Shown: positions 14,917-39,269 of the stretch, piece by piece | How the letters are laid out: each line of letters begins with the position of its first letter | Position numbering within the stretch: the first letter of the stretch is position 1 | DNA from: Bacteroidales bacterium | GTDB lineage: Bacteria > Bacteroidota > Bacteroidia > Bacteroidales > UBA932 | Assembly (NCBI GenBank): GCA_017399865.1 | Contig: JAFQAT010000028.1 | Span: forward strand, 1 to 58,286 | DNA: 58,286 bases | Direction of reading: 5' to 3' | Translations under genes and position numbers: made by a program | Notes under the pieces: model-generated | Databases searched by the model: none | The model's input: the letters and a program-made list of their open reading frames with translations, nothing else | What the model was told of the DNA's origin: nothing

Positions 14917-15810
14917 ATGGAAGAAACGATTTGCAAAGGTAATTTTTACCATGTCTGTACAGACGGACTTGAACAGGTGACGCTCCTGAAAGATGAGGAT
15001 GACTTCAAAACCGCATGGAACTATCTCGCTTTAAGCGCTTGGAGAAACGGAGTAAGTGTCGTAGCCTTCACCTTGATGTCCAACCATGTACACGAACTCC
15101 TTGCCTGCAAGAAAGCCGAGCAGGCGGACAAGACCATAAAACTATACAAGAAACTTATCTCTACTTTCCTGAGACGAAAGTATGGATTATCCCAGACACT
15201 GCATAGGACAAGAGACTGCATTTCAGTTATTGATACGATACAGTACCTTAAGAATTGTATCGCATACATATTACGGAATGCTGTCTGCGCAAGAATATGC
15301 TCTAAACCGGAATATTACAGATGGTCAAGTTACGGATGTTATTTCTCTGACAAAAGAAAGAAAAGCGTCTCAAGACCTGTATCTGAACTGACATATACAG
15401 AAAAACGCAGGCTGCTTAAAACAGGTATGGACCTCAGCAATTGTCCGTTCAGGATTGATGAAGACGGGCTGATTACCCTTGACTCATTCGTAGAATCAGA
15501 CGTAGTGGAAAAAGCCTACAAATATTCCGGCAAGTCATTCCTATATTATCTGGGCTGCTGCAATGATGCAAAGATGGAATATGAACTTGCTTGCCAGCCG
15601 ATGATGCATGTAAGCGACCAGGATATGTATGAGACCATCAGGAAACATGTTGCCAACCGTTTTCGGGGAAAAGAACTGTCCGAGTTATCATCGTCAGAGA
15701 AATGTTCTATTCTTAAATCAGTATTCTTCAACAATAAGACATCCATTCCCCAACTCTCCAGAATTATGGGTCTTTCCAGAAAACTTATACAACGTATTTT
15801 ATCCACATGA
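14917..15810 (+). CDS. REP-associated tyrosine transposase (RAYT), Y1/IS200-like, type A
   Basis: 297-aa single-strand DNA transposase relative. The Y1 core starts GNFYHVCTDG and carries the metal-binding HUH-type motif SNHVHELL (about residues 54-61). The likely catalytic tyrosine is in AYILRNAV (about 117), followed by the family WSSYGCYF. The C-terminal 160 residues are an extra domain ending in a helix-turn-helix-like stretch (IPQLSRIMGLSRKLIQRIL). It is flanked by two family A repeats; the right copy begins at its stop codon. RAYTs are domesticated, single-copy relatives of IS200/IS605 transposases that process REP hairpins. The surrounding DNA is more AT-rich than the neighbouring metabolic genes. 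Confidence 0.85.
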   Translation: MEETICKGNFYHVCTDGLEQVTLLKDEDDFKTAWNYLALSAWRNGVSVVAFTLMSNHVHELLACKKAEQADKTIKLYKKLISTFLRRKYGLSQTLHRTRDCISVIDTIQYLKNCIAYILRNAVCARICSKPEYYRWSSYGCYFSDKRKKSVSRPVSELTYTEKRRLLKTGMDLSNCPFRIDEDGLITLDSFVESDVVEKAYKYSGKSFLYYLGCCNDAKMEYELACQPMMHVSDQDMYETIRKHVANRFRGKELSELSSSEKCSILKSVFFNNKTSIPQLSRIMGLSRKLIQRILST

Positions 15811-15920
15811 TGCTCACGACGGGTATTTTTGTCGCCCGTCATGAGAGCCTGACCGCAACTGAAGCGGTTTAAAAGCACATTACCTCACACAACGGGCAGC
15901 AAAAACACCCGTCGTGTGAG
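15810..15920. repeat. Repeat family A, right copy (REP/BIME-like double hairpin)
   Basis: Same layout as the copy at 13508. Hairpin 1 (15813-15845) is identical to the left one. Hairpin 2 (15884-15920) has a 13-bp stem with one mismatch. A small stem ACCGC/GCGGT lies between the two. Eight substitutions over 111 bases separate the copies, several of them in loops or in the linker. It lies between the RAYT stop and the convergent Lrp-type regulator stop (15922). Confidence 0.85.
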
Positions 15921-37606: not shown

Positions 37607-37720
37607 ACGCCTGTGTCACTTTCCGGGCTGAAAGTGACACAGGTGTAGCTAAAATAGACGTTTCACTAGGGTTTCGGAAACACCTGTGACAGTTCTGGGC
37701 GTTTTTCTGACACAGGTGTT
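37607..37720. repeat. Repeat family B, left copy (REP/BIME-like double hairpin)
   Basis: Two hairpins. The first (37607-37646) has a 17-bp stem with one G-T pair, around CGGGCT, with arms ending CACTTTC/GAAAGTG. The second (37679-37720) has a 14-bp stem with one mismatch around a 14-base loop. Outer arms share ACACCTGTG/CACAGGTGT. Aligned to 38873-38985 without gaps, 102 of 113 positions match. Sequence is unrelated to family A, although size and architecture agree. Confidence 0.85.
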
Positions 37721-37762
37721 ATTCCTGACGTTATAACTGTTCCTGTTTCCGAATGATTTTCA

Positions 37763-37770
37763 TACATTTG
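37763..37770 (+). promoter_or_regulatory. Promoter -7 box for RAYT type B
   Basis: TACATTTG, about 56 bases before the GTG start and just outside the left repeat. No clear -33 element. The transcript would not include the left hairpins. Confidence 0.45.
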
Positions 37771-37825
37771 TCTCTGACTTCATACATTTCGGGAGAGATG
37801 CGGTGCAAGACTGAAGAGAAAGAAC

Positions 37826-38761
37826 GTGAAAAAGACAAATGATATGAAAAAGACTTACCACCTATGCCTTTCTGCAGGCAACGAGGTCATGTTCAGAGAC
37901 CTTGAAGATTACAATCGCGGATTCAACTGCTTTGCTCTGTCCCTGTACAAGACAGGTTCGACCGGACTTGTGGAATCCTTCATGTCCACACATACCCATC
38001 AACTGGTACAGACAACTGATCCTGACGAACTGATGTACAATTTCCGCTTGCCATATAGTATGTATTTCAACCACAAGTACCACAGAAGCGGAAAGTTGGG
38101 TGAGCAAGTACACTTCACCCTGGACGTTGTCGGATACCATCACATGGTGGCGGCTGCCAGCTATGTCCTAAGGAATTGTTTACATCACGGAGTCGCTCCA
38201 ATCCCATATGCCTATCCGCACTGTTCTGTCAATGCCATCTTCAGAAAGGAAATGGGAAAATTTCTTGACGAGCCGATACTTCCAGCAAGATCGATTCCTA
38301 GATTCATAGGCAGACGTGCAGAATGTCCCTCAAACTATATCATGAATGAGAGCGGTGTATTTTTAAGGGAAAGTGTCCTTGATATTCCGCAAGTGGAAAA
38401 CCTGTTTGTCACGCCGAGGTCATTCAATTACTACATGAGCAGAAAATCCGGAGAGGAATGGGATGCAGAACAGAAAAAGGATGGAAACGGTGCTGCTCCG
38501 ATAAACCTCCTGTCAATTGAGAAAGGTGTAGGCATGCATGATGTTGAAAAGATGATCATATTTGAAAACGGAAAGGTCGACTACAAGAAGGTATCTGACA
38601 TCGATCTGTGCACAGAACTGGACCAGCTTGCACGTGAAAGATACGGAAGACATTCCGTATATCAGCTTACGGATAATGAAAAAATCAGGATTGCCTCTGA
38701 ACTATATCATGCCCGCCACCTTAACAAGGTACAGATTCAAAGATGTCTCGCGATGCTATAA
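37826..38761 (+). CDS. REP-associated tyrosine transposase (RAYT), Y1-like, type B
   Basis: 311 aa, distantly related to the RAYT at 14917. Shared points: KTYHLCLSAGNEV at the start, the metal-binding HxH in STHTHQLV (about residues 55-62), the likely catalytic Tyr in SYVLRNCL (about 113), and a C-terminal domain ending in a helix-turn-helix-like YHARHLNKVQIQRCL. The usual NP after the tyrosine and the WSS motif are not conserved, so it is divergent. I use GTG at 37826 (purine-rich GAGAAAG upstream); ATG at 37844 is an alternative. It is bracketed by two family B repeats about 110 bases from each end. Confidence 0.75.
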   Translation: MKKTNDMKKTYHLCLSAGNEVMFRDLEDYNRGFNCFALSLYKTGSTGLVESFMSTHTHQLVQTTDPDELMYNFRLPYSMYFNHKYHRSGKLGEQVHFTLDVVGYHHMVAAASYVLRNCLHHGVAPIPYAYPHCSVNAIFRKEMGKFLDEPILPARSIPRFIGRRAECPSNYIMNESGVFLRESVLDIPQVENLFVTPRSFNYYMSRKSGEEWDAEQKKDGNGAAPINLLSIEKGVGMHDVEKMIIFENGKVDYKKVSDIDLCTELDQLARERYGRHSVYQLTDNEKIRIASELYHARHLNKVQIQRCLAML

Positions 38762-38872
38762 ACGATCCAGCAGATTAACACTGACGCACATGTAACTGTC
38801 CCAACTGCCATATCCAGACACCGAGCAGGGACTATTACCCTGTATTTCTTATGCTCCTACGACAACAACCAG

Positions 38873-38985
38873 ACACCTGTGACAGTTTTCGGGCTGAAAG
38901 TGACACAGGTGTGGCTAAAAGTGCCGTTTTACTAGGGTTTCGGGAACACCTGTAACAGTTCTGGGCGTTTTTCTGACACAGGTGT
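38873..38985. repeat. Repeat family B, right copy (REP/BIME-like double hairpin)
   Basis: The first hairpin (38873-38912) pairs ACACCTGTG with CACAGGTGT, with a less perfect inner stem. The second (38946-38985) keeps the same outer arms and the loop TTCTGGGCGTTTTT. Eleven substitutions in 113 bases separate it from the left copy. Some of them weaken the inner stem of the first hairpin, so this copy may be drifting. Confidence 0.85.
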
Positions 38986-39086: not shown

Positions 39087-39152
39087 CGGGACGGTGGCGA
39101 GGGAGCGGAGCATATCCCTATGCTCCTGCGGAGCGACCCGCCGTCCGTCCCG
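39087..39152. repeat. GC-rich nested palindrome
   Basis: Outer arms CGGGACGG (39087-39094) and CCGTCCCG (39145-39152), then GGCG/CGCC, and an inner hairpin GAGCATA-TCCC-TATGCTC. It would form a branched cruciform. The stretch is much richer in GC than the bases around it, which suggests an inserted or dispersed element. Confidence 0.7.
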
Positions 39153-39205
39153 GCATCACCACCTGGTCACCCACCTAGTTACCTGAATCATACAACACTC
39201 AAAAC

Positions 39206-39269
39206 ATCAACACTTTACATTAAATCGCCTGCGTCATATGTCGCAGGCGATTTAATGTAAAGTGTTGAT
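39206..39269. repeat. Perfect 28-bp inverted repeat
   Basis: Arms 39206-39233 and 39242-39269 are exact reverse complements over 28 bases, with an 8-base loop TCATATGT. The arm begins ATCAACACTTTACATTAAAT and ends in GC-rich CGCCTGCG next to the loop. There is no T tract, so it is not a typical intrinsic terminator, though it could stop transcription in either direction. Confidence 0.9.

Follow-up and report, generated by a model that had tools for sequence, protein, structure and literature searches.

A divergent RAYT-like transposase gene between two 113-bp double-hairpin repeats in a gut Bacteroidales genome: a probable REPtron/REPIN-like system

We analysed a 58,286-nucleotide stretch of a Bacteroidales bacterium (contig JAFQAT010000028.1, assembly GCA_017399865.1), hereafter the window. 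The source assembly (G000), of which the window is one contig, has 2.19 Mb and is 78% complete. Its named relatives are mostly Bacteroidales metagenome-assembled genomes, several of them from sheep and water-buffalo gut, and the host is a gut bacterium. Positions 37607-38985 hold a 1379-bp repeat-gene-repeat unit, in which a transposase gene related to the RAYTs (REP-associated tyrosine transposases; REP, repetitive extragenic palindrome) lies between two elements in direct orientation:

37607..37719, + strand: left 113-bp double-hairpin element (hairpin 1 at 37607-37646, 33-nt spacer at 37647-37679, hairpin 2 at 37680-37719)
37720..37843, + strand: leader between the left element and the gene, with a promoter-like TAnnTTTG site 81 nt 5' of the ATG
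37844..38761, + strand: gene of a divergent RAYT-like Y1 HUH transposase of 305 aa (HUH residues 50-52, Tyr107, then R-N-C-L-H-H-G)
38873..38985, + strand: right 113-bp double-hairpin element (hairpin 38873-38912, spacer 38913-38945, hairpin 38946-38985)

The initial annotation had described a compact 1379-bp unit with the gene about 110 bases from each of two 113-bp repeats, 90% identical without gaps. Re-measurement gave the same lengths and identity, with gaps to the open reading frame (ORF) of 106 bp on the left (124 bp counting from the ATG) and 111 bp on the right.

For comparison we used two sets of fetched loci, a clade of 36 members and a sister set of 12; sister-type matches are, at the least, far more numerous than that. 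Partial, broken or distant members (L028/L073, L048, L049, L065, L066, L071 and L072) were left out of the clade set, as was L045, a duplicate record of the same locus as L054, and L039/L040 represent L010/L011 in the flank analyses. L028/L073 (G044:C4) is a clade member broken across two reading frames, apparently a decayed copy. The phylogeny, which was run within the genus, split the clade from the 12 other Y1/RAYT-like proteins with a support of 100/99 (36 vs 12 rows). The gene had first been placed at 37826-38761. This ORF is indeed open and encodes 311 aa from a GTG, but translation more likely begins at the ATG at 37844, giving 305 aa: this is where the N-terminus conserved across the clade (MKKTYHLC) starts, and the relative L041 has an in-frame stop between GTG and ATG.

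The residues H50, H52 and Y107 were invariant in all 48 aligned proteins, and H114 and H115 in 36/36 clade members. The window protein has the His-x-His (HTH) and YVLRN motifs first noted in it, as THTH and YVLRNCLHHG. Both motifs noted as lost, the WSS and the NP that follows the tyrosine motif, are indeed absent; some sister-group proteins also have no NP. A Y1 fold was predicted with confidence by AlphaFold2 (predicted local distance difference test, pLDDT, 92.7; predicted template modelling score, pTM, 0.91), and the best structural match by Foldseek and VIA-align was 4er8 (TnpAREP). The profile search, another check put forward in the initial annotation, gave no Y1 profile match for the window protein itself and matches for part of the clade: at E up to 0.1, Y1_Tnp matched 6/36 clade members and REP_Tyr_transpos 15/36. 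All 12 sister proteins matched both profiles, and one sister member scored 34 bits, below the NCBIfam cut-off of 80. The clade matched the sister-group profile over its full length, including the C-terminal part (E 5e-38). As to the helix-turn-helix that characterises the C-terminal extension of TnpAY1 subclass 2.1, no clade member matched a helix-turn-helix profile at E up to 0.1, and the sister group gave one HTH_23 match.

Each element consists of two 40-nt hairpins, with 13-nt arms and a 14-nt loop, that are separated by a 33-nt spacer and have their centres 73 nt apart. The arms are ACACCTGTG...CACAGGTGT, with the variant ACGCCTGTG in the first. As single-stranded DNA, the four hairpins folded better than shuffles (z of -8.0, -4.4, -4.2 and -3.1; 0, 0, 0 and 1 of 200 shuffles folded as well), which agrees with the double-hairpin repeat originally proposed. 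The pattern ACACCTGT N20-28 ACAGGTGT occurred three times in the window vs 0 in 100 shuffles. In addition to the two flanking copies, G000 carries full copies on contigs C4, C64, C76, C43, C65, C7 and C3 and a lone 40-nt unit on C13. Seven copies inspected by a simple ORF view lie between long ORFs or at an ORF 3' end (C13), and those on C4, C64 and C7 additionally overlap shorter ORFs (ORF inspection only; C3 is outside this set). In most G000 copies the two hairpins agree in arm asymmetry and have T-rich loops on one strand, and the hairpin pair therefore seems directly oriented. In the copies on C3 and on C17 of G039 the loops are A-rich. Judged by eye, some relatives (for example L046, L013 and L055) seem to have one of the hairpins inverted.

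In an unbiased doublet scan covering the loci fetched from four genomes, with unit lengths of 32-50 nt and any spacer, each of the 34 units found was 40 nt long; they included 16 doublets, with a spacer of 33 nt in 14 and 32 nt in one. Among 14 elements of 113 bp, a set collected with a fixed loop and spacers of 32-34 only, the arms were 89-92% identical and the loops and spacer 46-50%. The same pattern (gap 20-28) was searched for in 101 same-genus genomes and gave 21 matches, 14 in G000, five in G039 and two in G021, all with a gap of 24; the other 98 genomes had none, and a control with the pattern reversed matched once, in a single genome. BLAST for the repeat found the same three genomes, which hold the three closest transposases among the matches listed. 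G141, found by a separate route, carries two further copies.

Across the clade, the 72 flanks of the 36 genes held 78 hairpin units vs 5.6 in shuffles. The stems differ between loci: for example, the ACACCTGTG stem occurs in the window and at L039, GAGCTGAGC at L012, L043 and L054, ACACCTTGG at L046 and L013, and CCGTCGTAC at L042. The best left-right arm match was at least 9/12 in 12 of the 18 genes comparable on both sides. Stems were clearly alike in the five pairs with at least 80% protein identity and, below that, partly alike at most. A second stem family was found in 2/101 genomes (G039 and G056), each with a transposase flanked by that stem. Of 70 adjacent unit pairs, 16 (from 11 genes) had their centres exactly 73 nt apart, and 20 had a spacing of 71-74 nt vs a shuffled mean of 0.1. 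A further 11/70 pairs at 35.5-36.5 nt probably reflect a centre between two hairpins; the remainder was scattered. Indel-free common descent could contribute to the shared 73-nt spacing, although the spacers are strongly diverged. For the sister group, 30/44 pairs lay at 25.5-27 nt, many of them from two genes. Flanking hairpins with a centre spacing of about 26 nt were seen at the sister genes L030, L031, L032, L034, L035 and L037, with long arrays at L031 and L037. At L024, similar repetitive segments flank a clade member (matches of 326-451 bp, 76-82%); several are offset by about 81 bp, and the segments are therefore probably a tandem array.

The leader site TAnnTTTG, which we take to be the Bacteroidetes -7 consensus, lies 78-92 nt 5' of the start in 11 of 12 relatives picked from the subclade with at least 57% identity. 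It occurred within 125 bp upstream in 14/36 clade members vs 1.7 expected, and the remaining subclade members L040, L044 and L056 (63-74% identity) had none in that interval. Thus, the segment separating element and gene may hold a promoter of the unit's own.

We then compared the unit between genomes. The G039 gene encodes a protein of 85% identity and shares the downstream gene, and its upstream gene is different. The similarity sets in at precisely nucleotide 1 of the left element, with 82.5% identity over the whole unit. In a segment that opens inside hairpin 2 of this element and takes in the leader (37687-37846), identity to G039 was 97-100% per 40-nt block; 116 of 305 third codon positions differed (62% same), far below the leader identity. 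The final 274 bp of the gene were 98.5% identical to G141 (locus L048), the adjoining gene 79% and another shared locus 82.5%. This short stretch at a contig end suggests that the unit was recently exchanged or replaced. One orthologous gene, present in 7/101 genomes, adjoins a full element in G021 and a single 40-nt unit with a similar left junction in G000; in G007, G024, G056, G120 and G128 there was no element within 330 bp of it (less for G128, at a contig end). G000 C64 and G141 C91 hold a common inherited element, and the doublet at G000 C43 and the lone unit at G021 C25 adjoin the same gene. Elements thus seem to have been gained, trimmed to one unit and inherited.

Other features of the window were recorded. 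A 64-bp near-perfect, loop-free palindrome (97% complementary) lies at 39206-39269. The 79-bp stretch at 39088-39166 was 98.7% identical to L048, the surrounding sequence having no BLAST match; a similar GGAGCATA/TATGCTCC-like sequence occurs near elements in L102 and L112, and the segment is possibly another dispersed repeat. A further Y1_Tnp/RAYT-like protein, of the sister group, is encoded at 14917-15810. Its 3' flank contains an inverted repeat with 33-nt arms (15815-15916) and a pair of hairpins whose centres lie 73 nt apart.

Taken together, the unit is probably a REPtron/REPIN-like system (REPIN, REP doublet forming a hairpin) of a divergent RAYT clade. In the mechanism we propose, the gene with its own promoter-bearing leader would give a Y1 HUH endonuclease working on single-stranded DNA in dimeric form. 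This dimer would bind both 40-nt hairpins of an element and cut close to the hairpin feet via Tyr107. Strand transfer in trans would then move or copy the 113-nt element or a single 40-nt unit, probably where replication forks expose single strands, with the transposase gene staying low-copy between two elements. Established TnpAREP chemistry, as given in the cited text of PMC8266576, is the basis for this presumed binding, cutting and strand transfer; the strand acted on and the dimer geometry are likewise presumed.

Several observations weigh against this reading. Just 10 places in the 78%-complete assembly carry the repeat, a low copy number, and more than 100 copies are usual for REPs according to the cited text of PMC2817692. 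The 5' flanks of eight full-length copies share no motif and no GT[AG]G guide. One G039 doublet (L136, G039:C2) has a 20-nt spacer, the sole clear exception to 33 nt, and 50/70 clade pairs fell outside 71-74 nt, which means that the spacing is not strict. Just 12 of 27 distinct clade loci had a direct repeat on both sides within 200 bp, and the compact unit is therefore not universal. Overall, stem similarity did not track protein similarity (Mantel r 0.145, not significant, with 544/5000 permutations as high), which speaks against simple co-divergence. G021 carries the window repeat (C53, C25), yet L040, its closest transposase, has another motif on its flanks; the repeat there may be orphaned or its gene unassembled. 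Finally, no transposition was seen, and the compared genomes offered no clean empty site, as species differ in the sequence 3' of the gene that was compared.

The whole 1379-bp unit could instead be an autonomous IS200/IS605-like insertion sequence with the outer hairpins as left and right ends, which we regard as unlikely. End hairpins of IS608-type elements have the same orientation, as the two hairpins here apparently do. The start of the G039 similarity at the first base of the left element, with differing upstream neighbours, would also fit such an element, as would the 98.5% identity to L048 at the end of the gene beside a neighbour gene of just 79%. However, the downstream neighbour is common to G039, suggesting an inherited position, and the predicted fold is nearer to TnpAREP than to the IS200 enzymes. 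Moreover, IS200/IS605 elements would be recognised by several near-identical gene-bearing copies, and the 78%-complete G000 has one gene copy of the type vs eight gene-less element copies.

It is more doubtful still that the protein is a domesticated DNA-binding or DNA-processing factor and the repeats are immobile regulatory sites or terminators. The low copy number, the conserved leader, the location of copies at a gene end or in the gaps separating long ORFs and the element site retained between species (G000 C64 and G141 C91) are consistent with this, but the HxH and the tyrosine are unchanged in all 48 proteins, one orthologous gene has neighbouring elements that differ in presence and size, and the stem sequence changes between relatives while the spacing stays. 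That the repeats are chance neighbours, such as ordinary terminators unrelated to the transposase, is very improbable. Gene-end hairpins can terminate transcription, and compact flanking repeats were found at just those 12/27 loci; nevertheless, the excess of hairpin units in the flanks, the confinement of two stem families to a few genomes holding related transposases, and the exact spacing all argue otherwise.

The REPtron/REPIN-like system is notable because relatives often keep the repeat geometry while swapping its sequence. Tentatively, and with rather less confidence than for the system itself, we suggest a genus-confined RAYT clade with many transposase-repeat pairs, whose stems are largely replaced at about 65-75% protein identity and whose architecture (hairpin of about 40 nt, 73-nt spacing, T-rich loop) is kept. 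If so, the enzyme would read geometry and loop rather than stem sequence, or re-specify fast, and the same-strand hairpin pairs would be miniature left and right ends of a minimal mobile element, 113 nt long and carrying an internal ruler. This bears on how RAYTs and repeats find each other and on what sets REPIN size. Eleven genes with about eight stem types and one 73-nt spacing offer natural pairs for testing the roles of stem, loop and spacing.

As in RAYT/TnpAREP systems with REPs, bacterial interspersed mosaic elements (BIMEs) or REPINs (E. coli TnpAREP 4er8; P. fluorescens REPINs), a protein with a predicted Y1 HUH fold, closest to 4er8, is encoded between palindromic elements that are also dispersed alone (two flanking, seven solo and one half copy). 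The doublet resembles REPINs in its conserved ends, variable spacer and nearly equal spacing; in the cited text of PMC3116915, the invariant ends of P. fluorescens GI REPINs are 71 bp apart, close to the 73 nt here. Unlike REPs, the window elements have 40-nt hairpin units with a 14-nt loop and no GT[AG]G foot, and their hairpins apparently share one orientation, whereas the REPs of REPINs are inverted. The protein has about 305 aa vs 165 residues in the 4er8 chain, with about 10 element copies. Canonical GTAG REPtrons (2.2, 2.4, 2.5, 2.7 and 2.8) differ in the GT[AG]G 5' of the foot and in NP, which is common to the class 2 motifs listed in PMC6006769. With IS200/IS605 elements (IS608, ISDra2) the system shares the Y1 HUH fold, the catalytic residues and hairpin DNA at the ends.

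For Bacteroidetes, the cited text of the published census (PMC6006769) names other subclasses, chiefly the short 2.6. Subclass 2.6 is mostly from this phylum and has atypical secondary structures flanking the gene, with copies elsewhere in the genome, but its median of 179 aa and its NH[LIV]H, WQ and YIH[QN]NP motifs do not match 305 aa, a THTH without a preceding N, and YVLRNC without NP. Subclass 2.1, or TIRYT with TIRtrons (TIR, terminal inverted repeat), resembles the system in its long protein with a C-terminal extension and in TIRs that are sometimes double palindromes in dispersed repeat families (cited text of PMC6006769 and PMC3733652). Its NHVH/NH[YF]H and LNP motifs do not match the window protein; moreover, 2.1 is reported there without REP-like sequences and its TIRs are inverted, whereas direct double-hairpin elements stand on both sides of the gene here. 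The proposal of an undescribed RAYT subgroup is thereby supported, as far as these published motif sets and the separate clade within the genus go: this is a RAYT-like subgroup of gut Bacteroidales that has cognate repeats and whose proteins are long and mostly invisible to Pfam. Without a conserved GT[AG]G guide, the term RAYT applies only in its wide sense. The system probably works like a REPtron/REPIN, and the published motif descriptions set it apart from 2.6 and 2.1. Given that it has the wide features of a RAYT-like TnpAY1 protein and lacks the canonical GTAG and NP features and the 2.6 and 2.1 motifs, it is a variant of the RAYT/REP kind.
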